This document shows positions 5,553-22,884 of a stretch of 64,000 bases of DNA, in pieces (position 1 is the stretch's first letter; the number at the start of each line of letters is the position of its first letter). The position numbers were made by a program, and so were the translations under genes. This stretch comes from Lacrimispora sphenoides (lineage in GTDB: Bacteria; Bacillota; Clostridia; Lachnospirales; Lachnospiraceae), in the NCBI RefSeq assembly GCF_900105215.1, contig NZ_FOIP01000002.1, positions 434,001-498,000 on the forward strand, in the 5' to 3' direction. The notes under the pieces are model-generated. The model was not told the DNA's origin. It saw nothing but the letters and a program-made list of their open reading frames with translations, and ran no database searches.

Positions 5553-6095
5553 TCAGGAAACCTGATCCAGCCTGCCGCAGGTAATATCCATTACAAAGCC
5601 CTGAACCGTTACATCGGGTGGCATGAGAGGATGGCCTTTAATCAGGGAAACGGATTTTTGAACGGCGGTTTCCGTGTTTTCAAAGCCCTGAAACCAGGAT
5701 TCAAAGTCCAGTCCCTCCTCTTTCAGCTGGAGTATGGTTTCCATGCCTACGCCTCTCTGGATCAGATGGGTGATGATGGTTTCCGGTGATAGAACAGCTG
5801 CACCGCAGTCGGTATGACCGATAACCATGATTTCTTCCACGCCGAATTCCAGAACAGCGATCAGCAGGCTGCGGATTGTGCTGTCAAATGGATCTAAGAT
5901 CAAGCCGCCTGCATTTTTTATTAACTTTACATCTCCGTTGTGGATTCCAAGTGCGGCCGGCAGAAGCTCTACCAGCCGGGTATCCATGCAGGTTAGTATG
6001 GCAAGCTTTTTTCTGGGACATTTGTTTGAAGCAAAGGATTTAAAAGTACCGTTGTTTACAAAAACATCATTGTGCTTTAAAATTTCTCGAATCAT
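5553..6095 (-). CDS. Beta-class carbonic anhydrase
   Basis: Interconverts CO2 and bicarbonate. The 180-residue product has the beta-class zinc site: Cys36-x-Asp38-x-Arg40 (CMDTR) and His94-x-x-Cys97 (HTDCG). The start at 6095 (MIREILKH) is chosen because GAGGAGGC lies 5 nt upstream; an ATG 10 codons further upstream has no comparable site. It stands alone on the minus strand between the citrate transporter and the decarboxylase operon. A role in handling CO2 released by oxaloacetate decarboxylation is a reasonable inference. Confidence 0.9.
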   Translation of the reverse strand: MIREILKHNDVFVNNGTFKSFASNKCPRKKLAILTCMDTRLVELLPAALGIHNGDVKLIKNAGGLILDPFDSTIRSLLIAVLEFGVEEIMVIGHTDCGAAVLSPETIITHLIQRGVGMETILQLKEEGLDFESWFQGFENTETAVQKSVSLIKGHPLMPPDVTVQGFVMDITCGRLDQVS

Positions 6096-7867: not shown

Positions 7868-8638
7868 ATGAAACTGAATATGAAACGAGTAGCATTGGGA
7901 CTTATTATGGCAGCCTGCCTCTTTTCATTATCTGCATGCAGCAAAGCCGATACCGCAGCCGAAGAAATCGATGCCAGGATCCAGACACAGATGGAGCAGC
8001 TTCCCGGTTCCTTCTTGGAACTGTATACCGGTCTTGAGGACAGCCAGGTTACTGAATTTAAGAAGAACATGCAGTCCCAGGATGAGTATGCTGCCCTGGC
8101 TGAAGGTGTGGATTCCTGGGAGAATATAAAGGATGAGCTTGGTGCCCTGGTATCAATCGGCGATACGGTGAAGGTAGAGGCTGTTGATCATGGGTACAGT
8201 GCTACAATTAATGCAGTATTTGAAAAGAGAGATATGGAATTTTCCATTACAACGGATTCAAAACTAACGAAGGTCACCAGTGTGGCATTTGTACCGGAAT
8301 ATACTTTAGGTGAACGGATGGAAAAAGCCGTGTTCAATACCCTGATGGGAATGGGAACAGTCTTTATTGTGCTGATTTTCATCAGCTGGCTTATCGGCTG
8401 CTTCCAGTATATCGGAAAGCTTGAAGATAAGTTAAACGGGAAGGCACAGGAGCCTGCTCCCGTACCCCTCCCCGAAGTTTCTGCTCCTTCAGCAGAAGAG
8501 AACGAAGAACTTGTGGATGACTTAGAGCTGGTAGCAGTAATTACTGCGGCAATTGCGGCATCTGAAGGGAGCTCGCCAAGCGGCCTGGTGGTCCGCTCGA
8601 TCAGACGGGCGCCAGCTGGAAAATGGAAAAAAGCTTAA
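7868..8638 (+). CDS. OadG-family subunit fused to an N-terminal lipoprotein domain
   Basis: Accessory (gamma-type) subunit of the Na+-translocating decarboxylase, 256 residues. It begins with a lipoprotein signal (lipobox LSAC, Cys near residue 24), followed by an extracytoplasmic domain of about 130 residues, a single membrane segment (VFNTLMGMGTVFIVLIFISW) and a cytoplasmic Pro/Ala-rich linker. The C-terminus (ELVAVITAAIAASEG...VRSIRRAP) is typical of OadG tails. Canonical OadG proteins are far shorter and lack the lipoprotein part. The start lies 17 bp after the carboxyltransferase stop. Function of the outer domain is unknown. Confidence 0.8.
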   Translation: MKLNMKRVALGLIMAACLFSLSACSKADTAAEEIDARIQTQMEQLPGSFLELYTGLEDSQVTEFKKNMQSQDEYAALAEGVDSWENIKDELGALVSIGDTVKVEAVDHGYSATINAVFEKRDMEFSITTDSKLTKVTSVAFVPEYTLGERMEKAVFNTLMGMGTVFIVLIFISWLIGCFQYIGKLEDKLNGKAQEPAPVPLPEVSAPSAEENEELVDDLELVAVITAAIAASEGSSPSGLVVRSIRRAPAGKWKKA

Positions 8639-8659
8639 TCAATCAGGAGGATTAACATC

Positions 8660-9073
8660 ATGAAAAACTATACAATTACAGTGAATGGGAATGTTTATGA
8701 AGTAACCGTAGAAGAAGGCTTAACCACAGGTGTCCCGGCAGCAGCTAAGATGCCAACTGTACCTGCGCCTTCTGCACCAGCCGCACCAGCTCCCTCTGCA
8801 CCGAAGGCAGCGCCTGCACCGGCAGCTCCTGTGAAGGCGGCAAACGTCGGCTCAGAAGGCGATCTAAAGGTAGCGGCTCCCATGCCAGGCAAGATCCTTG
8901 GACTTAAGGTAAACCCGGGACAGGCAGTGAAACGTGGAGATGTGCTGGTTCTTCTTGAGGCTATGAAGATGGAGAACGAGATCGTAGCACCTTCCGATGG
9001 AACCGTTGCCAGTGTTAATGTAGCGATCGGTGACTCAGTAGAAGCAGGAGCAACCTTGGCTACATTAAACTAG
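8660..9073 (+). CDS. Biotin carboxyl carrier protein of the decarboxylase
   Basis: Cytoplasmic 137-residue carrier. A short N-terminal segment and an Ala/Pro-rich flexible linker (about 26-62) lead into a biotinyl domain with the attachment motif EAMKMEN, where Lys103 would be biotinylated. It shuttles carboxybiotin from a carboxyltransferase to the OadB membrane pump. AGGAGG precedes the ATG. It sits between oadG and oadB, and both carboxyltransferases of this operon lack a biotinyl domain, so this is the only carrier available here. Confidence 0.93.
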   Translation: MKNYTITVNGNVYEVTVEEGLTTGVPAAAKMPTVPAPSAPAAPAPSAPKAAPAPAAPVKAANVGSEGDLKVAAPMPGKILGLKVNPGQAVKRGDVLVLLEAMKMENEIVAPSDGTVASVNVAIGDSVEAGATLATLN

Positions 9074-9081
9074 TACGGAAG

Positions 9082-9111
9082 AATCCGCTGTAAAGATAAA
9101 CAGAGCGGATT
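9082..9111 (+). other. Intercistronic hairpin
   Basis: AATCCGCT at 9082-9089 and AGCGGATT at 9104-9111 form a perfect 8-bp stem between the biotin carrier and the pump genes. No T run follows, so RNA processing or differential stability is more likely than termination. Confidence 0.5.
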
Positions 9112-9129
9112 TCATATGGAGGGATTAAC

Positions 9130-10278
9130 ATGGATTATATAAGTAATACATTTACAAATCTTCTTCAGCAGACCGCATTTTTAAACCTGACCGCAGGGAA
9201 TATGATCATGATTCTTGTAGCCTTTATATTTTTATATCTGGCTATCAGAAAAGGATTTGAACCCCTGCTGCTGGTACCGATTTCCTTTGGTATGCTGTTA
9301 GTTAATATCTACCCGGATATTATGAAGGAGGCTGGACCAGATGGCTCCGGAGGCGGACTGCTGAATTATTTCTTTAAGCTGGATGAATGGGGAATCCTGC
9401 CACCCCTGATTTTCATGGGTGTAGGTGCCATGACGGATTTTGGACCTTTAATTGCCAATCCAAAGAGCTTTCTTTTAGGAGCGGCTGCTCAGTTCGGTAT
9501 TTATACCGCTTATTTTCTGGCTATTTTTATGGGCTTTAACGATAAGGCAGCAGCTGCCATCTCAATCATCGGTGGAGCCGACGGACCGACTTCCATATTC
9601 CTTGCAGGAAAATTGGGAATGACCTCCCTTATGGGCCCCATTGCGGTTGCGGCTTATTCCTATATGGCGCTGGTACCTATTATCCAGCCGCCGATCATGA
9701 AGCTTCTGACCACGGAAAAAGAGAGAAAGATCCGGATGGAACAGCTTCGTCCTGTATCAAGACTTGAGAGGATCTTATTTCCGATCATCGTAACAACGGT
9801 CGTATGTCTCATTCTTCCCACAACGGCTCCCCTGGTGGGCATGCTGATGTTAGGAAACTTATTTAAAGAATCCGGCGTGGTAAAGCAGTTAACGGAAACT
9901 GCAGGCAATGCCATGATGTATATCGTGGTCATCCTGTTAGGAACTTCCGTAGGTGCGACGACCAGCGCTGAGGCATTCTTAAATATGAATACCATCAAGA
10001 TCGTTATTTTAGGCCTGGTAGCATTTGCGGTAGGAACAGCCGCCGGCGTGCTGTTTGGCAAGCTGATGTGCAAGGTATCCGGCGGTAAGGTGAATCCACT
10101 GATCGGTTCTGCAGGCGTATCTGCGGTTCCTATGTCAGCCCGTGTGTCCCAGAAGGTTGGCTCTGAGGCAGATCCTACCAATTTCCTGCTGATGCATGCC
10201 ATGGGACCAAACGTGGCAGGAGTTATCGGTACTGCAGTTGCGGCTGGTACATTTATGGCAATATTCGGAGTTAGGTAA
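9130..10278 (+). CDS. oadB: Na+-translocating decarboxylase beta subunit (ion pump)
   Basis: Polytopic membrane protein of 382 residues that decarboxylates carboxybiotin and exports Na+. Family motifs are present: [19 protein letters not shown] near 145-163, containing the Asp implicated in ion binding in characterised OadB proteins, and [20 protein letters not shown] near the C-terminus. TATGGAGGGATTAAC precedes the ATG. The same subunit family serves oxaloacetate, methylmalonyl-CoA and glutaconyl-CoA decarboxylases, so the substrate is set by the carboxyltransferase partner. Confidence 0.93.
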
Positions 10279-10287
10279 CTTTTCCCT

Positions 10288-10308
10288 GGAAAGGCGTTCA
10301 GCCTTTCC
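10288..10308 (+). other. Intercistronic hairpin
   Basis: GGAAAGGC, loop GTTCA, GCCTTTCC: a perfect 8-bp stem between oadB and oadA with no T run. It could separate mRNA segments or tune stability. Confidence 0.5.
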
Positions 10309-10345
10309 GGTAAACAGAAGAATGAACAAACCTGGAGGTAAGACA

Positions 10346-11758
10346 ATGGCAGAAATAGAGAAAAAGCCGGTTAAGATTGTAGAGACAGTCCTTCGTGACG
10401 CTCATCAGTCTTTGTTTGCTACAAGAATGACAACCGAGCAGATGCTTCCCATCATAGAAAAGATGGATCAGGTTGGCTATCATGCGGTAGAGTGCTGGGG
10501 CGGAGCAACCTTTGACGCATGCCTGCGTTTCTTAAAGGAAGATCCCTGGATGAGGCTTAGAAAATTAAGGGATGGATTTAAGGATACAAAGCTGCAGATG
10601 CTGTTCCGGGGACAGAATATCCTGGGATACAACCATTATGCCGATGACGTGGTAGAGTATTTCGTCCAGAAATCTCTGGCTAACGGCATCGATATTATCC
10701 GCATTTTTGACTGCTTTAACGATCTTCGCAACTTACAGACCGCAGTGACTGCCTGCAATAAAGAAAAAGGCCATGCGCAGGTAGCTTTAAGCTATACCCT
10801 TGGGGAAGCCTATACCCTGGATTACTGGAAGGACATAGCAAAGAGGATCGAGGATATGGGTGCTGACTCCATCTGTATCAAGGACATGGCAGGTCTTTTA
10901 ATACCCTACAAGGCGGATGAGCTGGTACGGGCATTAAAAGAATCCACAAAGCTTCCGATTGACTTACACACCCATTATACTTCCGGCGTTGCTTCCATGA
11001 CCTATCTAAAGGCAGTTGAAGCAGGCTGTGATATCATCGATACCGCAATGTCTCCCCTTGCTCTTGGAACCAGCCAGCCGGCGACTGAGGTTATGGTTGA
11101 GACCTTCCGCGATACGCCCTATGACACGGGCTACGATCAGAACCTGTTGGCAGAAATCTGTGCATACTTCCAGCCGATCAGAGAGGAAGCATTAAAGAGC
11201 GGACGCTTAAATCCAAAGGTATTGGGCGTAGACATTAAGACCCTTCAGTATCAGGTACCTGGCGGCATGCTTTCTAACCTGGTGAGCCAGTTAAAGGAAG
11301 CCGGTCAGGAAGACAAATACATGGAAGTGCTGCAGGAGATTCCAAAGGTACGAAAAGACTTTGGAGAACCGCCTCTTGTTACCCCATCATCCCAGATCGT
11401 CGGTACCCAGGCCGTTTTAAATGTCATTAGCGGTGAACGTTATAAAATGGTAACGAAAGAGACAAAGAAAATTTTTATGGGCGAATTCGGACAGACGGTT
11501 AAACCATTTAATGAAGAAGTCCAGAAGAAGATCATCGGTGATGAGACGCCGATCACCTGCCGCCCGGCCGATTTGATTCCTCCCCAGCTTCCTCAGTTTG
11601 AGAAGGACTGCGCACAGTGGAAACAGCAGGATGAAGACGTACTTTCCTATGCCCTGTTCCCAACGGTTGCCAAGGAATTCTTCCAGTACCGGGCCGCACA
11701 GCAGACCGGCGTGGACTCGTCTCTGGCAGATAAAGAAAATAAGGCTTATCCGGTATAA
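10346..11758 (+). CDS. oadA: Oxaloacetate decarboxylase alpha / pyruvate carboxyltransferase subunit
   Basis: Transfers the carboxyl group between oxaloacetate and biotin (pyruvate carboxyltransferase chemistry), 470 residues. Motifs: VETVLRDAHQSLFATRM at the N-terminus (metal-binding Asp), IFDCFNDLRN, CIKDMAGLL and the DLHTHYTSG metal-ligand histidines, followed by a conserved carboxylase domain (PGGMLSNL). The protein stops before any biotinyl domain, as in split enzymes such as the transcarboxylase 5S subunit. The start is set by GGAGG at 10334-10338; an open frame extends further upstream into oadB but has no better site. A strong terminator follows. Confidence 0.92.
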   Translation: MAEIEKKPVKIVETVLRDAHQSLFATRMTTEQMLPIIEKMDQVGYHAVECWGGATFDACLRFLKEDPWMRLRKLRDGFKDTKLQMLFRGQNILGYNHYADDVVEYFVQKSLANGIDIIRIFDCFNDLRNLQTAVTACNKEKGHAQVALSYTLGEAYTLDYWKDIAKRIEDMGADSICIKDMAGLLIPYKADELVRALKESTKLPIDLHTHYTSGVASMTYLKAVEAGCDIIDTAMSPLALGTSQPATEVMVETFRDTPYDTGYDQNLLAEICAYFQPIREEALKSGRLNPKVLGVDIKTLQYQVPGGMLSNLVSQLKEAGQEDKYMEVLQEIPKVRKDFGEPPLVTPSSQIVGTQAVLNVISGERYKMVTKETKKIFMGEFGQTVKPFNEEVQKKIIGDETPITCRPADLIPPQLPQFEKDCAQWKQQDEDVLSYALFPTVAKEFFQYRAAQQTGVDSSLADKENKAYPV

Positions 11759-11765
11759 CTTCATA

Positions 11766-11799
11766 AAAATGGTCTCCCAATTTTGGGAGACCATTTTTT
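11766..11799 (+). terminator. Rho-independent terminator of the decarboxylase operon
   Basis: AAAATGGTCTCCCAA and TTGGGAGACCATTTT form a 15-bp perfect stem around a 2-nt loop, followed by a T run, 8 bp after the oadA stop. It is A/T-flanked on both sides. Confidence 0.92.
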
Positions 11800-11958: not shown

Positions 11959-11988
11959 TTGACACATGGTATCATTTGTCATTATAAT
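11959..11988 (+). promoter_or_regulatory. Strong promoter for the glucosaminidase/cohesin genes
   Basis: TTGACA at 11959-11964 and TATAAT at 11983-11988 with an 18-bp spacer, about 70 bp before the gene. A second TATAAT lies at 11998-12003. Confidence 0.7.
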
Positions 11989-12056: not shown

Positions 12057-14378
12057 ATGAAAAAGTATAAAAAAGCTCGTAAGATGGCCGTCATTCTGGC
12101 CAGTGTCCTGGTGATGGACTCTTACATGGGAGCGGTTTCGCCATACATAAATGCTTATGCTTATACGGAAAAGGCAGCAACGGTCAATGCCACCACTTTA
12201 AACGTGAGAAGCGGCCCGGGTACGACCTATTCAGTTGTTACAAAATTAACAAATGGGGCATCGGTTACGGTGATCGATGAGAAGAACGCATCGGATGGAG
12301 CGGTCTGGTATCAGATCCGTGTGTCCGGTTCCGGCGGCCAGACGGTTACCGGATATGTTTCCAAAAGCTATCTTAAGTTTCCCGCCTCTTATACCAATGA
12401 TGCGGATTTTGAGTCCCGGCTTACGGCGGAAGGGTTTCCGGAAAGCTATAAGACAAAGCTTCGTGCGCTGCATGCCCAGTATCCCAAGTGGGTATTCCGT
12501 GCCCAGCATACGAACCTGGACTGGAACACGGCTATTAAGGAAGAAAGCCAGGCAGGAAAAACTCTGGTCCACACCAACAGCCTGTCATCCTGGAAGTCCA
12601 CAGTAGATGGCGCATATAGCTGGGATACCAGCACATGGATCGGTTTTGACGGTAGCACCTGGGTCACCGCTTCTGAAGACATTGTAAGATATTATATGGA
12701 CCCCAGGAATTTCCTTGATGAGACCAATGTCTTCCAGTTTATGACCCATACATATGACAGCAATAAGCATACGGCAGATGGATTAAAAACCATGGTAAAG
12801 GGTACGTTTCTATCCGGCGAATCTTCAGGCGGAAGCAGTAACTCTGGGAATACGGACAGTTCTTCCGGCGGCGGCACGGTCATAGGGCCAGGTGCGGCCA
12901 TTGGGCCGGGAGCGGCTACTAACCCGGGGGCGGGATCGGAGTCCAATTCCGATTCAGGAAAGGTCAGTCTGGAAGGGCCGCAAGCTTCCATAACGCCTAA
13001 AAACCTTCCTATCGTTATGGAATACGGACCGGGAGCCAGCCTTACGGGGCCGTCCTCATCCGATACCAATTCCAATACCAATACCACTGGAACAGTTTCA
13101 GGCAGCAACGCCTATGTGAACATGATCATGAATGCGGCTTCTCAGTCAGGAGTGAACCCTTACGTCCTTGCAGCTATGATCATTCAGGAGCAGGGATCTT
13201 CCGGTACAGGCAAAAGCATTTCAGGAACAGAATCCGGTTACCAAGGATATTATAATTTTTTTAATATTGAAGCATATCAGTCAGGAACTATGACTGCGGT
13301 GCAAAGAGGCTTATGGTGGGCGTCCCAGTCCGGCAATTATGAAAGGCCATGGAATTCTCCTGAAAAATCAATTTTAGGCGGAGCTTTCTATTATGGTAAT
13401 AACTATGTAAAAGTTGGGCAGGATACATTTTATCTGAAGAAGTTTAACGTACAGGGGTCTAATTTATATAAACACCAGTATATGACCAATGTACAGGGAG
13501 CTGCATCAGAGGGTGCTGTTTATTCAAAAGCCTATAACAGCGACATGAAACAGACAGAGCTTGAGTTTAAGATACCAATTTATAACAACATGCCTGATAA
13601 CGCCTGCAGCCAGCCTACCGGCGATGGCAATCCAAACAATAAGCTGTCCGGTTTAAGCGTGGAAGGATTTGTCATGACTCCCACCTTTAGCCGCGATACT
13701 CTTGCATACGATTTGATTGTGGATCCCGGAGTATCAAGCATCAATGTGAATGCAACCGCCCTCAGTTCCTTGGCATCTGTCAAAGGGACAGGTACCATTG
13801 CGCTTTCAAGCGGCAATAATGATATCAAGGTGACGATTACGGCACAAAATGGAAGTGTCAGGGAATACGTCCTTCATGTGGTACGCCAGAACAACGGCCC
13901 GACTTATTCCTCAGGCGCTGGTACCGGAACAAGTTCCGGCTCCGGCGGCAATTCTTCTTCCGGCCCTGGCAGCAACACAGGCCCAGGAGTATCAAATTCT
14001 TCCGGTACGGATCATGCTGGAACACCGGGAGGAAGCAATGTATCCATAGCTCCTGACGGTTCCACAGGCATTTCCGTTCAGACTTCCACGGGAGTCATAG
14101 CCCAGGGACCTGGAACTGACATCAAAGTGACGGAAGCCGCCACAAGCAGTCCCCAGCAGACCCAGGCTCCGGCCGCTGGCCAGTCCTCCGCCTATGGAAT
14201 AGGAGATATTAACGGGGATGGAAAATTAAACAGCCTGGATGTACTGAAGCTTCAGCGATACCTTCTGGGATTGGAAACCATACCTGAGCAGGGCAAGCTG
14301 GCAGCTGATTTAAATGGAGACGGCAAGGTGAATTCACAGGATCTTCTGCTTTTGCAGAAAAAAATCCTCGGACTTTAA
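12057..14378 (+). CDS. Secreted SH3/glucosaminidase protein with Cadherin-like and dockerin domains
   Basis: Predicted extracellular peptidoglycan hydrolase, 773 residues. In order: Sec signal peptide (about 1-35), bacterial SH3 domain (about 38-105, with LNVRSGPGTTYS), a glucosaminidase-like domain split by a Ser/Gly/Pro-rich insert of roughly 100 residues, with the likely catalytic Glu in MIIQEQGSSG, a Cadherin-like beta-sandwich (about 530-610), a low-complexity linker and a C-terminal dockerin (about 712-773). The dockerin has two calcium-loop repeats, DINGDGKLNSLDVLKLQRYL and DLNGDGKVNSQDLLLLQKKI. The next gene encodes a cohesin, the natural partner of a dockerin. GGGAGAA precedes the ATG. 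Enzyme family is assigned by motif, not tested. Confidence 0.87.
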   Translation: MKKYKKARKMAVILASVLVMDSYMGAVSPYINAYAYTEKAATVNATTLNVRSGPGTTYSVVTKLTNGASVTVIDEKNASDGAVWYQIRVSGSGGQTVTGYVSKSYLKFPASYTNDADFESRLTAEGFPESYKTKLRALHAQYPKWVFRAQHTNLDWNTAIKEESQAGKTLVHTNSLSSWKSTVDGAYSWDTSTWIGFDGSTWVTASEDIVRYYMDPRNFLDETNVFQFMTHTYDSNKHTADGLKTMVKGTFLSGESSGGSSNSGNTDSSSGGGTVIGPGAAIGPGAATNPGAGSESNSDSGKVSLEGPQASITPKNLPIVMEYGPGASLTGPSSSDTNSNTNTTGTVSGSNAYVNMIMNAASQSGVNPYVLAAMIIQEQGSSGTGKSISGTESGYQGYYNFFNIEAYQSGTMTAVQRGLWWASQSGNYERPWNSPEKSILGGAFYYGNNYVKVGQDTFYLKKFNVQGSNLYKHQYMTNVQGAASEGAVYSKAYNSDMKQTELEFKIPIYNNMPDNACSQPTGDGNPNNKLSGLSVEGFVMTPTFSRDTLAYDLIVDPGVSSINVNATALSSLASVKGTGTIALSSGNNDIKVTITAQNGSVREYVLHVVRQNNGPTYSSGAGTGTSSGSGGNSSSGPGSNTGPGVSNSSGTDHAGTPGGSNVSIAPDGSTGISVQTSTGVIAQGPGTDIKVTEAATSSPQQTQAPAAGQSSAYGIGDINGDGKLNSLDVLKLQRYLLGLETIPEQGKLAADLNGDGKVNSQDLLLLQKKILGL

Positions 14379-14402
14379 AGTCCAACAGAAATAGGAGACA
14401 AT

Positions 14403-16250
14403 ATGAATAGGAAACTGAAAAAACTAACGGCCGGTCTGATGCTGGCCTGTGTGATTGCCATATCCTGTCCTGCCGGACGGCTGGTATCCTGGGCCGCAGA
14501 TGCTAAGATCGCGTTTTCTGACCCATCGGTCATGGTGGGAAACGAAGTAACAGTAAACATGAAAGTGACCAGTGACAGTGCCCTGGGTACGGCGGAAGTC
14601 ATGCTGTCTTATGATCCGAATATTTTGGAGTTTGTAAGCGGAACCAATGCAAATGGCGGAGCAGGAGCTATTAAGGTCCTGGGAACCATGGATTCTGCCG
14701 ATCAGAAAACTTTTAGCTTTACCTTAAAGTTTAAGGCTTTGCAGGCTGGAAATACCCAGATCAACGTGACCTCCCAGGAAATTTATGATGTGGATTCCCA
14801 GACACTTTCTTTAAGCAAGCAGGGGAGTTCAACGGTCAAGGTCACATCTCCTGCCACATATTCAAAGGATGCAACGCTTAAATCATTAAAGATTTCCCCA
14901 GGGACTCTGACTCCGGCGTTTTCTGCGTCTGTAGAAAGCTATACGGCAGAGGTAGATGGAAACACAGCGGACCTGGTAGTAAATGCGGTGGCAGCCAATG
15001 CAGGCGCTCATGTAGCACTTCAGGGAGAAAAGGGCTTAAAGTCCGGTGCAAACCAGGTGGTTATCAAGGTAACCGCAGAAGATGGGCAGACCGTTAAGAA
15101 TTATACAATTCAGGTTAATAAAGCAGATGGGGGACAAACCGCCCCGACTACAGGCGGAAATACAGAAACGTCTGAGGCCGAATTCGGCGAAGCAGTGGTG
15201 ACCATTAACGGAACCGATTACAGCATTGCATCATCCTTTGATGAATCAACGCTTCCAGAAGGCTTTGAGTCTGAGACCTATTCCTATAAAGGAACAGAAG
15301 TCATGGCTGGAAAAGGACTGGAAAAAGACCTGCTTCTGCTTTATTTAAAGGATTCCGGAGGAAACGGCGGATTCTACATTTACAATGAAGGATCGGATTC
15401 CTGGGCCCAGTTCGTTCAGGTTGAGACCGTAGCAAAAGCCATTGTCATCATTCCTCTTGATAAGGATACGGTTGTGCCGGAAGGTTTCCGTGAACGGCAG
15501 GCCGATATCGATGGTGCGCGAGTGACCGGCTGGGTGGAAAACTCAGAGGCTGAGCCTCAGTATTGCCTTTTCTATGCAATGAACTGGAACGGAGAAAAAC
15601 ATTTCTACCGTTATGATATTTCAGAAAAGACCATTCAAAGATACTATGCTTCCGGAGTTTCCAATAGTAAGTATGTGGAAATGGCCAACACATATGATCA
15701 GCTGGCTAAGGATTACTACAGGCAGCTCTACCTTCTCATTGGAGTGAGCGTTGTTGCCCTTGGATTGCTTGTTGCAGTCATCGTCCTTGCAAGAAAAGGA
15801 AACGGATCAGGCAGCGGCCGGACCGGCAGCGGCAGATCTGGAAAAGGAAAAGAAAAAGAACCGGAAGATAACCGGCTGTGGGCAGAGCCAGAGGAAGAAA
15901 TTCCAACAAGCAAGATCAAACGATACAGCAGGGAAGAGTTTGACAGAGAAAACTCCCAAACCGAACAGGATCCGGAATACCAGGAAGAAACCTTGGACGA
16001 GCCTCTTTATGCAGATGATGCAGAACAAGAAGTCCGGGAAGAGGATGATTTCGAAGAGGATGATTTCATAGAAGAAACCAGTCTGGAAGATTTTGAACGG
16101 GATCTTAAATCTTCCGGTGAAGGGAATTCCGGGAAACCAAAGGAAAAAGGCGGTTCAAGGCCTGTCCATAAGGAGCCGGATGAATTTTCGGAAACGGAAG
16201 AGCCAGATAGGGACGAAGACGACTTTGAGTATTTGGACTTAGATGATTAA
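14403..16250 (+). CDS. Membrane-anchored cohesin-domain protein
   Basis: Predicted cell-surface scaffold of 615 residues. Layout: signal peptide (about 1-32), cohesin domain (about 34-150, with VMLSYDPNILEFVSG), a Cadherin-like beta-sandwich (about 155-240), an extracellular region of unknown fold, one membrane segment (LYLLIGVSVVALGLLVAVIV, about 442-461) and a long, strongly acidic, low-complexity cytoplasmic tail. It starts 24 bp after the dockerin gene and surely shares its transcript, so it most likely holds that hydrolase at the membrane. The acidic tail could contact a cytoplasmic partner; none is identified. Confidence 0.85.
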   Translation: MNRKLKKLTAGLMLACVIAISCPAGRLVSWAADAKIAFSDPSVMVGNEVTVNMKVTSDSALGTAEVMLSYDPNILEFVSGTNANGGAGAIKVLGTMDSADQKTFSFTLKFKALQAGNTQINVTSQEIYDVDSQTLSLSKQGSSTVKVTSPATYSKDATLKSLKISPGTLTPAFSASVESYTAEVDGNTADLVVNAVAANAGAHVALQGEKGLKSGANQVVIKVTAEDGQTVKNYTIQVNKADGGQTAPTTGGNTETSEAEFGEAVVTINGTDYSIASSFDESTLPEGFESETYSYKGTEVMAGKGLEKDLLLLYLKDSGGNGGFYIYNEGSDSWAQFVQVETVAKAIVIIPLDKDTVVPEGFRERQADIDGARVTGWVENSEAEPQYCLFYAMNWNGEKHFYRYDISEKTIQRYYASGVSNSKYVEMANTYDQLAKDYYRQLYLLIGVSVVALGLLVAVIVLARKGNGSGSGRTGSGRSGKGKEKEPEDNRLWAEPEEEIPTSKIKRYSREEFDRENSQTEQDPEYQEETLDEPLYADDAEQEVREEDDFEEDDFIEETSLEDFERDLKSSGEGNSGKPKEKGGSRPVHKEPDEFSETEEPDRDEDDFEYLDLDD

Positions 16251-16281
16251 AGTACTTTAAACAATTGAATTAACAATGACG

Positions 16282-16309
16282 AAAGCACCTGAATGAAGGT
16301 GCTTTTGTT
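16282..16309 (+). terminator. Rho-independent terminator
   Basis: AAAGCACCT, loop GAATGA, AGGTGCTTTT then T-rich sequence, about 30 bp after the cohesin gene. Confidence 0.88.
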
Positions 16310-16884: not shown

Positions 16885-17469
16885 ATGTTATGTGAGAAAT
16901 GTAAAATTCGCGAAGCAAATATACAATATACAGAAGTTGTAAATGGCACGAAGAAAGAGCACCATTTTTGTGCCCAATGTGCGAAAGAGATGGATTTCGG
17001 AGTGTATGCAGCTATTTTTGACGGGGAATTTCCCTTAGGAAAGCTGCTTTCCGGCCTTTTGGGGATTGAAGATAAGGATCAGGAGCCAGATAAGCTCCAT
17101 CAGATCCTGTGTCCGACCTGCGGGACCGGTTACGATGAATTTGTAAGAGACAGCAGATTTGGCTGTGCAGATTGCTACAGCGTATTTGGTCCCCTTATGG
17201 AGGACAGTTTAAAGCAGCTTCATGGAAATCTTATTCACACGGGAAAAACACCGGTTTACCAGAGGCAGGACAGTATGGATCCGGCCGGCCATGGGAACGG
17301 CCGCTCTGCGGGGACACCAATAGACCCAGAAAGCGCTGCCAACTATGAGGAAATCTTTCGGTGGGATGTCAAATTAAAGGAAGCCCTGCGATTTGAGGAT
17401 TATGAAACGGCAGCTGTTTGCCGCGATAAGATAAGAGAGCTGAAGAAAGGAAATGAGACTGATGCTTAG
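16885..17469 (+). CDS. mcsA: Protein-arginine kinase activator McsA
   Basis: Activator and metal-binding partner of McsB, 194 residues. Paired CxxC motifs are visible (CEKCKI and CAQCAK, then CPTCGTG and CADCYS), followed by a C-terminal UVR-type helix (LKEALRFEDYETAAVCRDKI). GGAGG precedes the ATG. Its 3' end overlaps the mcsB start, which suggests translational coupling. Confidence 0.93.
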   Translation: MLCEKCKIREANIQYTEVVNGTKKEHHFCAQCAKEMDFGVYAAIFDGEFPLGKLLSGLLGIEDKDQEPDKLHQILCPTCGTGYDEFVRDSRFGCADCYSVFGPLMEDSLKQLHGNLIHTGKTPVYQRQDSMDPAGHGNGRSAGTPIDPESAANYEEIFRWDVKLKEALRFEDYETAAVCRDKIRELKKGNETDA

Positions 17470-18493
17470 ATGGTTTGAACAGAAGGACACTGGTCGGCCT
17501 GGAGTGATAAGCAGCCGGATCCGTCTGGTAAGAAACTGGCAGGATTACCAGTTTCCTTCTGCGCTTAGTGAAAAAGAAGGCGAAGAGATGGTCCGCAGGC
17601 TGGAGTTCGGCTTAAAGGATTTAGGCAAGGAAGAAGGCCGGAATTTTGAATTTTCCATGCTTTCGGACTTGGAAGAGCTGGACCGGGTGGCCCTTAAAGA
17701 ACGGAGAGCTCTTAATTCCGCAGCTGTTTTAAACAAAAAGCCTGCCGGTATTTTTATCTCAGAGAATGAAGACACCGGAATCGTGCTTAACTGCGATGAT
17801 CACATCCGGATCCAGCTTCTCCAGATGGGCCTTCACTTAGAGGAGCTTTGGGAAAGGGCAGATAAGATCGATGATTATATCAATGAGCGGTTTGCTTATG
17901 CATTTGATGACCGTTACGGTTATCTCACCTCGTTTCCCACAAATATGGGGACCGGCTTAAGGGCATCGGTGGTGGTTCATCTTCCCATGCTGTCCCAAGG
18001 GAAAAAGTTCCAGGGTCTTATCAGCGATATGGGCCGCTTCGGAGCTTCAGTCCGGGGCGTCTATGGGGAAAGGGATGAGAATTTCGGTTCCCTTTATGAG
18101 ATATCAAACCAGAAAACCCTGGGTCAGACGGAGCGGGAAATTATTGATACAGTTACAAAGGCAGCGATACAGCTGACCAATCAGGAGTTTCAGGTGAGGA
18201 AGCTTTCTCTCCAGAGGCACAGGGACGAGAGAGAGGATGAAGTTTACAAATCCTATGGGGTATTAAAATACTCCAGACGGCTGACTTCCAGGGATGCTAT
18301 GATTTTCCTATCACAGATCATGGCAGGGCTGGCAGACGGCCTGATCCATACGGAGGAAGATTTTTCCGTCTACCGCTTGATGCTTGGAATCCAGCCGGCG
18401 AATCTGCAGAAGCTTTCAGACCGCCCATTAAGCAAGGAAGAACTGGATGGAGCCAGGGCGGAATTTATCCGGAGAGAATTGCCGGAACTATGA
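17453..18493 (+). CDS. mcsB: Protein-arginine kinase McsB
   Basis: Phosphorylates arginines on client proteins to mark them for ClpCP degradation. The 346-residue length and the guanido-kinase core fit the family, including the nucleotide-binding arginines in SSRIRLVRN and the conserved [18 protein letters not shown] stretch. The annotated ATG overlaps mcsA by 17 bp; a second ATG at 17462 (MLRWFEQ) is an equally good start. clpC follows 16 bp downstream but is disrupted, so the usual partner may be missing. Confidence 0.93.
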
Positions 18494-18509
18494 CAGGAGG
18501 ATTGCATTT

Positions 18510-20853
18510 ATGATAGACAGATTTACAACAAAGGCCAGGACAGCCATTAATCTGGCCGTTCAGGCAGCGGAACGTCTCGGCCACAGCTATGTGGGAACGG
18601 AACACTTATTAATCGGGCTTTTAGAAGAGGGCAGCGGAGTTGCTTCCAGAGTTCTGGAAGAGAATGGTGTAAAAGAGGAGAAGGTTTTAAACCTGATCAG
18701 CCAGCTGATCGCTCCTGACCAGGCAGTCAGGCTGAAAGAAGGTAACGGGTATACTCCGGGTGCCAGAAGGGTTTTAGAGAACAGCTACCGGGAAGCCGTG
18801 CGGTTTAAGGCAAACTTAATCGGTACGGAGCATTTGCTCATTTCCATAATCCGTGACAATGACTGCGTCGCTTCCAGGCTTTTAAATACCATTGGAATCA
18901 GCATTCAAAAGCTATACATTGATGTGCTGTCTGCGATGGGTGAGGATGCTCCTGCCAATAAGGAAGAGCTTATGAAATCACCAAAGTCAAAAGGCAGTAC
19001 GCCCACTCTTGACAGTTACAGCAGAGATTTAACAGAGCTTGCAGTACAGGGAAAGCTTGATCCGGTCATCGGAAGAGAGTCGGAGATCAAGCGTCTGATC
19101 CAGATACTGAGCCGGAGGACCAAGAATAATCCTTGTCTCATCGGAGAGCCTGGAGTTGGGAAAACTGCAGTTGTGGAAGGCCTGGCTCAGATGATAGTAG
19201 AAGGTGATTGCCGAAGTGATTGATGATGGGGAAGTTCTTCTCTTCATCGATGAGATCCATACAATTATCGGTGCAGGAGGAGCGGAGGGAGCCATTGACG
19301 CCTCCAATATCTTAAAGCCTTCCCTGGCAAGAGGGGAATTGCAGCTGATCGGTGCCACCACCATTGAAGAGTACCGCAAATATATCGAAAAGGACTCTGC
19401 CCTGGAACGGCGTTTCCAGCCGGTTACGGTGGAGGAGCCGTCGGAAGATGCTGCTATCGTCATATTAAGAGGGCTTAAGGGACGGTATGAGGACCATCAC
19501 AAGGTAATCATTACTGACGATGCCATAAAGGCTGCTGTAAAGCTGTCTTCCAGGTATATTAATGACCGTTTTCTTCCGGATAAGGCCATTGATGTCATTG
19601 ACGAAGCTTCTTCCAAGGTACGCCTGACCACATTTGTAGAGCCGGGTGAAATTAAGGAACTGGAAGCTGAGATCGAGCAGATGGAGGATCAGAAGGAAGC
19701 CGCCATTAAAACCGAAGCCTACGAAAAGGCAGGGGCCATTAAGAAGAAGCAGGAAAAGAAGCGGGAAAAAATAGAAAAGATCCGGGAACGTTGGCAAAAG
19801 GAAAAAACGTCAAAGAACCTCATAGTCGATGAGGGAGAGATCGCTGATGTGGTATCCAGCTGGACTAAGATCCCCGTAAGAAAGCTGGAAGAGGGAGAGA
19901 GTGAACGCCTTCGCAATCTGGAAGCCATCCTCCATGAGAGGGTGATCGGCCAGGAGGAAGCGGTTACCGCTGTTTCAAAGGCCATACGAAGGGGGAGAGT
20001 GGGACTTAAGGACCCCAGGCGCCCCATTGGCTCCTTCCTGTTTTTAGGACCTACGGGTGTTGGAAAAACCGAGTTATCCAAGGCCCTTTCCGAAGCCATG
20101 TTTGGAACGGATAATGCTTTGATCCGGGTAGACATGTCCGAGTATATGGAGAAGCACAGCGTTTCCAAGATGATCGGCTCACCGCCAGGATACGTAGGCT
20201 ATGATGAAGGCGGACAGCTTAGTGAAAAGGTCCGCAGGAATCCTTATTCCGTCATATTGTTTGATGAGATCGAAAAGGCTCATCCCGATGTGTTCAATAT
20301 CCTGCTTCAGGTACTGGATGACGGACATATTACAGATGCCCAGGGCAGGAAGATTGATTTTAAGAATACCATCATCATCATGACCTCCAATGCAGGAGCG
20401 GAGAACATCATATCTCCTAAACGTCTGGGCTTTGGCGCAGTTGCGGATGAAAAGGCTGATTATAAAATCATGAAGGACCGGGTAATGGAGGAAGTAAAGC
20501 GTCTGTTCAAACCTGAATTTATTAACAGGATCGATGGAATCATTGTATTCCATACGTTAAATAAGATTCACATGAAGGATATTGTGACGATCATGATGAA
20601 GGATATTATGAAACGGACATCGGAACAGATGAGCATCACCCTGGATATCGGAGAGGATGCCAAGGAATACCTGATCAATAAGGGCTATGATCAGAAATAC
20701 GGTGCAAGGCCGTTAAGGCGTACCATTCAAAACTGCCTGGAGGATAAACTGGCAGAAGAGATCTTAAATGGAACGATAAAGACAGGGGATGACGTAGTTG
20801 TGGCCGCAGGTGAGGACGGACTAAAATTTTCTGTCAGGGAGCTGGTAAAATAA
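18510..20853 (+). pseudogene. clpC: clpC, AAA+ protease chaperone with internal frameshifting deletion
   Basis: ClpC unfolds substrates for ClpP. The 5' part (18510-19223) encodes the double Clp N-domain and the first Walker A (GEPGVGKT, residues 212-219), then leaves frame after residue 233 (VEGD). A second frame resumes at 19201 with [10 protein letters not shown], Walker B (LLFIDEIHT), the middle coiled-coil, a second AAA+ module (GPTGVGKTE) and a normal C-terminus to 20853. Compared with known ClpC, about 33-35 residues between these points are absent, including the conserved pore-loop segment. AAGGTGAT at 19201-19208 could serve both flanks, which points to a microhomology deletion. An assembly or sequencing error must be excluded. 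AGGAGG precedes the start. Confidence 0.85.
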
Positions 20854-20955
20854 CTAGCCATTTTATATCAATTCGTGTATAATAGCTACAAGCGAGATCA
20901 TTAGTTCATCGCCTTAAAAAAGGATAAGTAAACAAAATACTAGGAGGGCAAACCA

Positions 20956-21369
20956 ATGCCGGTAATTGAAGATTTAATCCGCTCAGAGCAAGACGGGACG
21001 ATCAGTTTTGGTAATTACAAATTAAAGACAAAGTCAAAATTACAGGATTTTGAACACGACGGTGATTTATATAAAGTAAAGACTTTTTACGAGATAACCA
21101 AGCTGGAAAGAAACGGCATGTTCGTATACGAATCCGTTCCGGGAACCGCTGCCATAAATTTCACCGTATCCGATGATGGGGTAGGTTTTTTAGTAGAAGG
21201 TGATAAGGATGCCCAGCTGACCGTTCAGCTGGCAGAGGATACCGAATATGAGGTTTATGTGGATGATGCTGCCGTGGGTGGCATGAGAACCAACATGAGC
21301 GGAAAGCTGTCCATCAGCGTGGAACTGAATGAAGGAACACCTGTAGCAGTGAAGATCAAACGAAGATAA
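20956..21369 (+). CDS. Conserved hypothetical protein
   Basis: Soluble acidic 137-residue protein of unknown function, with no signal peptide or membrane segment. The second half is predicted beta-rich (DAQLTVQLAEDTEYEVYVDD) and ends in a basic KIKRR tail. I recognise it as a small protein family seen in related clostridia but cannot name a function. A TATAAT at 20878-20883 and AGGAGG before the ATG support independent expression. A terminator follows directly. Confidence 0.75.
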   Translation: MPVIEDLIRSEQDGTISFGNYKLKTKSKLQDFEHDGDLYKVKTFYEITKLERNGMFVYESVPGTAAINFTVSDDGVGFLVEGDKDAQLTVQLAEDTEYEVYVDDAAVGGMRTNMSGKLSISVELNEGTPVAVKIKRR

Positions 21370-21381
21370 CAGGATGAGAAG

Positions 21382-21426
21382 CTGGGTTCGGCCCTTTTAT
21401 AAAGAGCCGGGCCCAGATTTTTTGCA
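21382..21426 (+). terminator. Rho-independent terminator
   Basis: CTGGGTTCGGC at 21382-21392 pairs with GCCGGGCCCAG at 21406-21416 using two G-U pairs; a T run follows. Confidence 0.85.
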
Positions 21427-21486
21427 TGAGTAATGAGCCGGACGAATATGCCTGCATATTCCTTTGGCAAATAGGAGGAAATTCCC

Positions 21487-22884
21487 ATGGCAAAGGGAAA
21501 GACAACCGCATTTTTCTGCAAGGAATGCGGATTTGAATCGGCAAAGTGGCTGGGACAGTGCCCGGCCTGTAAAGAATGGAATACATTTGTGGAGGAGCCT
21601 TCCGGGAAAAAGGAGCCAGCTGCTAAGCGGGGAATCAGTGGAAAAGGGGACGGGACCGCAGGAAATCATTTCCTGAATGCCAAGCCCTCCCGTTTGTCTG
21701 ATATTCAGTTAGACGAGCAGGACCGGATGAAGACCGGATATGAGGAGCTGGACCGGGTTTTAGGCGGCGGCGTTGTCAAAGGCTCACTCGTGCTGGTAGG
21801 CGGTGATCCAGGCATTGGAAAATCCACCCTGCTTTTACAGGTTTGCCGCAATCTGGCGGCCGACAGCAGGAAGGTGCTTTACATATCAGGAGAAGAATCC
21901 CTAAAACAGATTAAGCTGCGGGCAAACAGAATCGGGGAAGTGAAGGGGGATTTGTTATTCCTTTGTGAAACCAGCCTGGAGTTGATTGAAAGTGCCATTG
22001 AAGAGGAAAAGCCAGATGTGGTAATCATTGATTCCATACAGACTATGTTCCGGGAAGAAATCTCTTCCGCCCCGGGAAGTGTCAGCCAGGTAAGGGAATC
22101 CACCAATATCCTGATGCAGATCGCCAAGGGGGCGGGAATCGCCATATTTATCGTAGGCCATGTGACAAAAGAAGGCGTGGTGGCCGGTCCCAGAGTCTTA
22201 GAGCATATGGTTGATACGGTTTTGTATTTTGAAGGAGACCGAAGCGCTTCTTACCGGATTATCCGGGGAGTGAAAAACCGTTTTGGATCCACCAACGAGA
22301 TCGGCGTTTTTGAAATGGTAGAAAGCGGGCTTTCCGAGGTGAAGAATCCTTCGGAATATATGCTCAGCGGAAGGCCGGAGGATGCCTCCGGTGCAGTGGT
22401 AGCCTGTTCCATGGAAGGCACCAGGCCCATGCTGCTGGAGGTTCAGGCTCTGGTCACCCCAACGGCTTTCGGTATGCCAAGGCGTACTGCGGCTGGTACG
22501 GATTATAACCGGGTGAATCTTTTGATGGCTGTTTTGGAAAAGCGATGCCATTATGACCTGTCCCATTTTGATGCTTATGTGAATATTACGGGCGGTCTGC
22601 GTATGAATGAGCCGGCCTTAGACTTAGCGATTATAATGGCAATTGTGTCCAGTATGAAGGACAAGGCCGTAGATCCGAAAACCATTATCTTTGGAGAAGT
22701 GGGACTGGCAGGAGAGGTGCGGGCCGTGTCCATGGCACAGCAGAGAGTGAATGAGGCAAAGAAGCTGGGATTTAACACCTGCGTGCTGCCGGAGATTTCC
22801 CTGGGAAAGATGGGGAAGGTGGAAGGGATGCGGCTGATTGGAGTCACGAATGTAAGAGAGGCGATTGTGAGAGTTATGGGGTGA
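21487..22884 (+). CDS. radA: DNA repair protein RadA
   Basis: RecA-like ATPase that promotes branch migration in recombination, 465 residues. Features: N-terminal C4 zinc finger (CKECGF and CPACKEWN), Walker A (GGDPGIGKST), the RadA-specific KNRFGSTNEIG motif and a C-terminal Lon-protease-like domain (about 330-465). AGGAGG lies before the ATG. The stop codon is buried in the terminator stem that follows. Confidence 0.95.
   Translation: MAKGKTTAFFCKECGFESAKWLGQCPACKEWNTFVEEPSGKKEPAAKRGISGKGDGTAGNHFLNAKPSRLSDIQLDEQDRMKTGYEELDRVLGGGVVKGSLVLVGGDPGIGKSTLLLQVCRNLAADSRKVLYISGEESLKQIKLRANRIGEVKGDLLFLCETSLELIESAIEEEKPDVVIIDSIQTMFREEISSAPGSVSQVRESTNILMQIAKGAGIAIFIVGHVTKEGVVAGPRVLEHMVDTVLYFEGDRSASYRIIRGVKNRFGSTNEIGVFEMVESGLSEVKNPSEYMLSGRPEDASGAVVACSMEGTRPMLLEVQALVTPTAFGMPRRTAAGTDYNRVNLLMAVLEKRCHYDLSHFDAYVNITGGLRMNEPALDLAIIMAIVSSMKDKAVDPKTIIFGEVGLAGEVRAVSMAQQRVNEAKKLGFNTCVLPEISLGKMGKVEGMRLIGVTNVREAIVRVMG

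Follow-up and report, generated by a model that had tools for sequence, protein, structure and literature searches.

A stretch of 64,000 nucleotides from the genome of Lacrimispora sphenoides (contig NZ_FOIP01000002.1, positions 434,001 to 498,000; hereafter the window) was analyzed, and in it we found a two-gene unit consisting of a glucosaminidase gene with a C-terminal dockerin and a gene for a membrane protein with a single cohesin. We give a probability of about 60% to the reading that both products form a cell-wall unit in which the dockerin enzyme is held by the membrane protein as its receptor. The first protein would be secreted and bind wall material through its SH3 domain, its GH73 domain would by homology cut glycan strands, and its C-terminal dockerin would plug into the cohesin of the second protein. 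The latter would be placed in the membrane with the cohesin, a Cadherin-like domain and a further beta domain outside and an acidic tail inside, thereby keeping the only enzyme of this type detected in the cell near the membrane, where new glycan strands emerge. The tail probably couples the complex to a partner inside the cell. Such a unit would be a counterpart of the SagB-SpdC pair of Staphylococcus and could influence the length or release of strands.

The enzyme starts with a signal-like sequence, followed by an SH3_3 domain, a glucosaminidase in two parts, a Cadherin-like domain and, at the extreme end, a type I dockerin (Table 1). The initial annotation had described this dockerin as complete with two repeats, and the PF00404 alignment indeed covers both calcium-loop repeats. 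About 100 Gly/Ser/Pro-rich residues divide the two conserved glucosaminidase segments, the first of these probably corresponding to the first lobe in the GH73 cleft. Among solved structures, the enzyme matched Autolysin E (2.9e-10), a bifunctional autolysin (3.1e-9) and, under the name 'LYZ2 domain-containing protein', 6u0o (6.1e-8), whose chain 6u0o_B we take to be SagB. The aligned structures included 4pi7, 6fxo and 6u0o, all presumably GH73 enzymes, and Glu378 aligned with a Glu of 4pi7 which we assume to be the catalytic residue. This relatedness and the aligned acidic residue place the enzyme in GH73, as far as its sequence can tell. Because the NCBIfam SagB model NF052642 matched with 44.8 bits (E 8.5e-12), far below its cut-off of 425 bits, the enzyme may be said to work like SagB but not to be SagB. 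The Pfam glucosaminidase family PF01832 gave no match in the enzyme at E 10 and none genome-wide at E 1e-3, and the enzyme appears to represent a diverged glucosaminidase subfamily relative to PF01832. The earlier description as a glucosaminidase-like protein with an SH3 domain is thus supported by homology to solved autolysins and by the SH3_3 match, but not by the Pfam family. Among the relatives described below (loci are numbered L, genomes G), one enzyme (L073) matched PF01832 weakly (E 0.0018), and two enzymes of another type, in L188 and L190, matched it well. In L188 (1652-6337) the neighbor of the cohesin gene encodes a glucosaminidase whose nine ChW repeats possibly serve as an alternative wall anchor and in which no dockerin was matched; in L190 (1926-5390) it encodes a Pfam-type glucosaminidase of another subfamily, which likewise ends in a dockerin.

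The second protein consists of a signal-like start, the cohesin, a Cadherin-like domain, a conserved beta-rich domain, one membrane helix and the acidic tail. Its N-terminal domain had been named a cohesin before; the score above the Pfam cut-off (31.5 bits in the genome-wide search) and the beta-sandwich fold, upheld by structure comparison with 2xdh as best Foldseek match, bear this out. In a structure search with the whole membrane-protein model, cohesin matches filled the list. The model of the domain at residues 258-420 was moderately confident, with blocks of the predicted local distance difference test (pLDDT) mostly at 74-89 and the lowest at 56-61. The sharing of a Cadherin-like domain by both proteins, the strong single helix and the long acidic tail were also found as first described; the two Cadherin-like parts are 31% identical across about 107 residues. 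From the basic residues after the helix, the tail is predicted to be cytoplasmic. Its end is conserved in close relatives as a DDFEFxDLD-type motif, which is consistent with the signaling or docking role suggested for the tail; the pattern occurred in 30 of 80 rows (genus sample plus window) in a strict and in 45 of 80 in a loose form, both counted without a chance control. The gene order and the 24-base spacing of the pair follow from the coordinates of the open reading frames.

Table 1. Features of the two-gene unit and its flanks (positions of the window).
Feature	Position	Strand	Basis
Terminator-like hairpin upstream of the pair	11765..11798	+	15 pairs, T-rich tail; divides the pair from the preceding cluster
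Promoter-like site TTGACA-18-TATAAT	11959..11988	+	12/12 consensus match only
Glucosaminidase/dockerin gene	12057..14378	+	ATG 12057 to stop 14378, 773 aa
SH3_3 domain, residues 47-107	12195..12377	+	Pfam, E 1.6e-13
Conserved enzyme N-terminal segment, residues 112-245	12390..12791	+	own profile 'ghn'
Low-complexity Gly/Ser/Pro-rich stretch between the two enzyme segments	12804..13109	+	sequence
GH73 catalytic segment (predicted), residues 352-512	13110..13592	+	SagB model 8.5e-12, solved-structure matches
Aligned acidic residue Glu378	13188-13190	+	alignment with Glu of 4pi7
Cadherin-like domain of the enzyme, residues 533-611	13653..13889	+	Pfam, E 7.8e-9
Type I dockerin PF00404, residues 716-771	14202..14369	+	E 4.7e-17, profile positions 2-57 of 57
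Single-cohesin membrane protein gene	14403..16250	+	ATG 14403 to stop 16250, 615 aa
Cohesin domain PF00963, residues 39-159	14517..14879	+	25.9 bits, cut-off 24.1
Cadherin-like domain of the membrane protein, residues 159-240	14877..15122	+	Pfam, E 7.6e-11
Conserved extracellular (predicted) beta-rich domain without Pfam match, residues 258-420	15174..15662	+	alignments, structure model
Membrane helix, about residues 444-462	15732..15788	+	hydropathy
Acidic tail, residues 467-615	15801..16247	+	149 residues, 54 D/E, 20 K/R
Conserved tail end, DEDDFEYLDLDD	16212..16247	+	alignments of close relatives
Terminator-like hairpin closing the two-gene unit	16278..16309	+	

Pfam searches of the window's own genome (5.93 Mb, two contigs, 99.99% complete) found a single cohesin next to a single dockerin; the enzyme part also matched once. 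Other dockerin proteins, which the initial annotation had proposed to look for, were not detected by this search. Since the single cohesin and the single dockerin adjoin, and since this arrangement recurs in other genera, the pairing is more than chance. Three further genomes of the same genus (G382, G465 and G517) also carry the dockerin. In G517, contig C15 shows two extra, shorter dockerin matches (5860-6021 and 14306-14446) in very short open frames.

For the distribution of the unit, the membrane protein was searched in 299 Lachnospiraceae genomes, one per genus and including the window's own. Matches were obtained in 191 of them, some being the Cadherin-like domain alone, and 80 genomes were fetched from the other 190 matching ones as the best-ranked, not by random draw. 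In addition, 278 named loci were confirmed, of which the best 80 were retained and 77 used; this set and the genus sample overlap. Own profiles were built for the domains of the operon, among them 'ghn', the cohesin and the dockerin. The gene pair, already described for the window, recurs in many genera of the family: a glucosaminidase gene adjoins the cohesin gene in 73 of 78 judgeable loci (by own profiles, plus L188 and L190, whose enzymes were counted via Pfam). Two loci end at contig edges, and in both genomes the enzyme was found at the end of another contig. All 72 measured pairs lie on the same strand with a median gap of 5.5 bases between the reading frames. The best named locus was that of L. 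celerecrescens (91% in the best segment), and protein P0121, named Lacrimispora sp., is 97% identical to the enzyme from residue 110 on. An order-wide search covered 294 genomes, of which 104 had any match to the membrane protein. Among the matches listed, those that lie outside the family and extend over most of the protein belong to four genomes, which represent two genera in a single other family; most other listed matches were the Cadherin-like piece.

In Staphylococcus aureus, SagB-SpdC (LyrA) is described as a releasing factor which frees nascent peptidoglycan by cutting it off its lipid anchor, SpdC making SagB yield products of correct length (PMC12272431). The unit found here likewise combines a glucosaminidase with a membrane protein, and the catalytic part of the enzyme matches the SagB model. 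In contrast to SpdC, which belongs to the CAAX protease family and is integral to the membrane, the partner has a single helix with cohesin and Cadherin-like domains, and the link would be of the cohesin-dockerin type. The partner encoded in the operon is not of the CAAX protease type; no search was made for an SpdC-like protein encoded elsewhere in the genome. Because the same task would suit a glucosaminidase which a receptor retains near the membrane, we tentatively place a SagB-like cutting of nascent strands as the function, although we regard it as less likely than not. If the pair, or its dockerin-less relatives, indeed holds the enzyme at the membrane, the Lachnospiraceae, a major gut family, would gain a dedicated wall-growth regulator of a kind different from SpdC, and a housekeeping role would be suggested for some cohesins.

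The main rival to this function is septal cell separation, which we regard as rather unlikely. The enzyme would then be an autolysin for daughter-cell separation and the membrane protein a receptor placed at the divisome, with action at the septum and not on nascent strands. The presence of the bifunctional autolysin and Autolysin E among the solved homologues favors such a role, and the conserved end of the tail might act as a divisome peptide, but no division gene was recognized adjoining the pair; the downstream genes at 16885-22884 of the window resemble what we take from their translations to be mcsA, mcsB, clpC and radA. The sequence would fit the septal and the SagB-like role alike.

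The proposed holding of the enzyme by the cohesin is weakened by the distribution of the dockerin, by tests of the pairing itself and by loci that keep the cohesin in other settings. With Pfam, a dockerin was found in the operon in 35 of the 80 genomes, only elsewhere in 14 and not at all in 31. Among the 14, G218 very likely has its operon split between contigs, and in G125 the own profile detects a weak dockerin in the operon. The operon dockerin is the only one found in 29 of the 35 genomes. By the own profile, 36 of 73 glucosaminidase operons have a dockerin and 37 have none. Of the 31 dockerin-less genomes, 29 nevertheless keep the cohesin-sized region, 28 match the own cohesin profile and 28 have the enzyme adjoining the cohesin. 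The dockerin is dispensable in evolution and represents the labile part of the operon, and the operon across genera supplies many natural comparisons with and without it.

On a rapidly built tree of the membrane protein, with 37 dockerin-bearing, 35 dockerin-less and 8 unlabelled rows, this trait changed at least 8 times, 6 of the changes being forced by starred branches; after shuffling of the trait the mean was 24 changes, and 0 of 500 shuffles were as low as 8. The tree has many long branches, joins four long pairs and has no outgroup. The trait is therefore clustered by descent, yet was repeatedly gained or lost. The sample rows nearest to the window (L111-L113, Hungatella and kin) have no dockerin. 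Since a beta stretch before the dockerin (YxVVIYGD type) is common to several distant lineages and C. symbiosum, loss from a dockerin-bearing ancestor seems the likelier direction.

The structure prediction for a fused dockerin and cohesin had confident parts and a predicted template modeling score (pTM) of 0.69; no interface was seen in this output, which covered such scores but no coordinates or errors at the interface. In a mirror-distance test with 41 loci (820 pairs), the partial correlation of dockerin and cohesin was 0.04 (5-95% range -0.14 to 0.19), so that no co-evolution was found, and that of dockerin and GH73 was higher with 0.29; the power of this test is possibly low, the dockerin having about 60 residues. 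The rate of the cohesin on dockerin-less tips was compared for tips under 0.5 (31 with and 25 without dockerin) and was 0.86 relative to the enzyme segments (p 0.79) and 1.05 relative to the rest of the operon (p 0.39). Relative to the domain at residues 258-420 it was 1.33 (p 0.045), which accompanies a slower evolution of that domain in dockerin-less tips (control 0.65). A quicker change of the cohesin after dockerin loss, hinted at by pairwise bins of short and middle distances, was thus unsupported tip by tip. Together, the null results for co-evolution and rate speak for a job of the cohesin even without dockerin.

Within the family the cohesin tends to follow the enzyme, although not strictly. 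A cohesin-sized N-terminal region is absent from L170, L177 and L180, with Cadherin-like domains that begin at residue 49, 53 and 83, respectively. All three belong to the five loci without an adjacent glucosaminidase, and none of the 73 enzyme-bearing loci lacks the region, five of them being below the own cohesin profile. For L148, L178, L182 and L188, where no Cadherin-like landmark served for placement, the cohesin profile was used instead. Fisher's test gave 1.3e-4 for this association, a statistic which ignores descent; the descent-aware pairs (2 on starred branches with none contrary, 4 on the best tree) are too few. No such enzyme was found in the genomes G103 and G268. In G282 it lies elsewhere, adjoining presumable gyrA- and gyrB-like genes, and has no dockerin; other cohesins and a dockerin occur there in large proteins elsewhere. 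In the remaining two loci the cohesin is kept although the enzyme is missing: L157, which has a subtilase upstream, and L162. The same was observed in four loci of the sister family (two genera), where no glucosaminidase was found beside the cohesin; two of these genomes have the enzyme unlinked, and two of one genus (97% and 86% complete) show none.

The tethered cohesin-dockerin hydrolase complex proposed at the outset therefore stands with regard to its domains, its helix and the recurrence of the pair, but not with the dockerin as the sole link, because dockerin-less genomes retain the cohesin and the cohesin evolves no faster there relative to the enzyme. Binding between cohesin and dockerin is likely one way of joining, not the only one. 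In dockerin-less relatives, both proteins most likely still associate through a second contact which would predate or replace the dockerin.

An unlikely alternative is that the cohesin-like domain binds another ligand, such as the wall or some other portion of the enzyme, and that the dockerin serves elsewhere or as a calcium-bound stabilizer, the operon still being a functional unit. The cohesin-sized domain retained in 29 of 31 genomes, the missing co-evolution, the missing relaxation after dockerin loss and the many dockerin-less enzymes which end 2-6 residues past a shared GGSNVTIV-like motif all agree with it. On the other hand, the only dockerin and the only cohesin found in the window's genome are neighbors, and in the 29 of 35 genomes mentioned above no other dockerin was found for the cohesin. 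As a replacement partner, a large fn3 protein with a dockerin-like match (Hungatella hathewayi, an Enterocloster) was considered and rejected, the match lying in the first 290 residues and not at the C-terminus; in the Enterocloster protein it scored 17.3 against the Pfam cut-off of 22.9. The Hungatella hathewayi protein (L191, 5250-7499) is large and secreted, with the dockerin-like stretch at residues 172-218, and long frames with a dockerin match that resemble it occur in other genomes.

For the second contact, the GGSNVTIV-like motif is named as a candidate because it is placed at the exact end in many species. It was counted in frames above 550 aa. Among dockerin-less loci, 22 of 43 in the named set and 9 of 34 in the genus sample have it 2-6 residues from the C-terminus. 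In dockerin-bearing enzymes it was found 105-201 residues before the end (16 of 29 named and 1 of 34 genus-sample loci), and the linker of the window's enzyme carries the near variant GGSNVSI. None of 680 shuffled tails held the motif. Of the dockerin-less enzymes, roughly half in the named set and most in the genus sample are without it, and it may be a mere remnant of the Gly/Ser linker. More speculatively, and in our view quite improbably, the cohesin could be a general receptor for a wall enzyme with two exchangeable ligands: the dockerin in some lineages and, in others, a short GGSNVTIV-type strand, which would remain at the end of the enzyme after dockerin loss and pair with the edge of the cohesin sandwich. 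Occupancy of this receptor by the enzyme would be relayed through the membrane to the tail, where the DDFEFxDLD end would recruit a partner inside.

Cohesin-dockerin pairs are known as the glue of plant-fiber machines. A remnant or seed of such a cellulosome-like, nutrient-degrading complex is highly improbable despite the modules in common and a related genome, G054, that encodes elsewhere a GH9-dockerin enzyme as well as a strong cohesin protein, since we found one cohesin and one dockerin genome-wide, the latter on an SH3 glucosaminidase, with neither a scaffoldin with several cohesins nor a set of dockerin enzymes, and since 36 of 73 glucosaminidase operons have the dockerin-bearing enzyme. 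In G054 (Lachnospiraceae) these two genes lie side by side (L199, 3070-6822), besides a dockerin-less operon. In contrast to the type I pairs of the cellulosomes of Clostridium cellulolyticum, C. thermocellum and C. acetobutylicum, the window's genome showed one of each partner, no scaffoldin and no plant polysaccharide enzyme with a dockerin, and the receptor is predicted to be in the membrane. Non-cellulosomal cohesin structures were also matched (2jh2, 2vo8, 2w1n and 2xdh, e.g. from Clostridium perfringens glycoside hydrolases and Archaeoglobus); these cohesins are likewise single, but the proteins differ. An operon of two genes that joins a glucosaminidase to a membrane protein with an acidic tail is not known to us. 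A description of the operon was not found among the literature matches listed; subscription papers were mostly outside their scope, and absence from print is not claimed.

Dockerin-bearing wall hydrolases as such were described for Ruminococcus champellensis, where they are said to join the cellulosome scaffoldin under the idea of a 'lyticome' (PMC6403190). Both cases have wall-cutting enzymes with dockerins; here, in contrast, the gene next to that of the enzyme codes for a dedicated membrane protein with a single cohesin. For Ruminococcus albus, a single cohesin has been proposed as a surface anchor of dockerin enzymes (PMC6118326), serving many of them in contrast to the one wall enzyme here. 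In Butyrivibrio proteoclasticus B316, the secreted polysaccharide-degrading enzymes are reported to be without dockerin, and scaffoldin or cohesin components to be lacking (PMC2914790).

With regard to its flanks, the two-gene unit appears to be framed by a full promoter match and two terminator-like hairpins. Such hairpins exceeded the shuffled expectation in the window (13 vs 4.4), and promoter-like sites of any quality showed no excess as a class (6 found vs 6.4 expected). The upstream cluster (7868-11758), which ends with a strong terminator-like hairpin, presumably encodes oxaloacetate decarboxylase subunits. Several loci of the genus sample (e.g. L157, L162, L170 and L174) likewise have clpC-like frames 3' of the cohesin gene, and purD-like frames occur 5' of the cohesin gene in L162, L177 and L180 and 5' of the enzyme in L201. 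One locus (L043, 1-7833) contains two cohesin regions and two dockerin ends, either by tandem duplication or as an assembly artefact. In L048 (4396-8404) and L054 (3617-7620) the enzyme, and in L048 also the cohesin, is broken across frames by sequencing error or decay.

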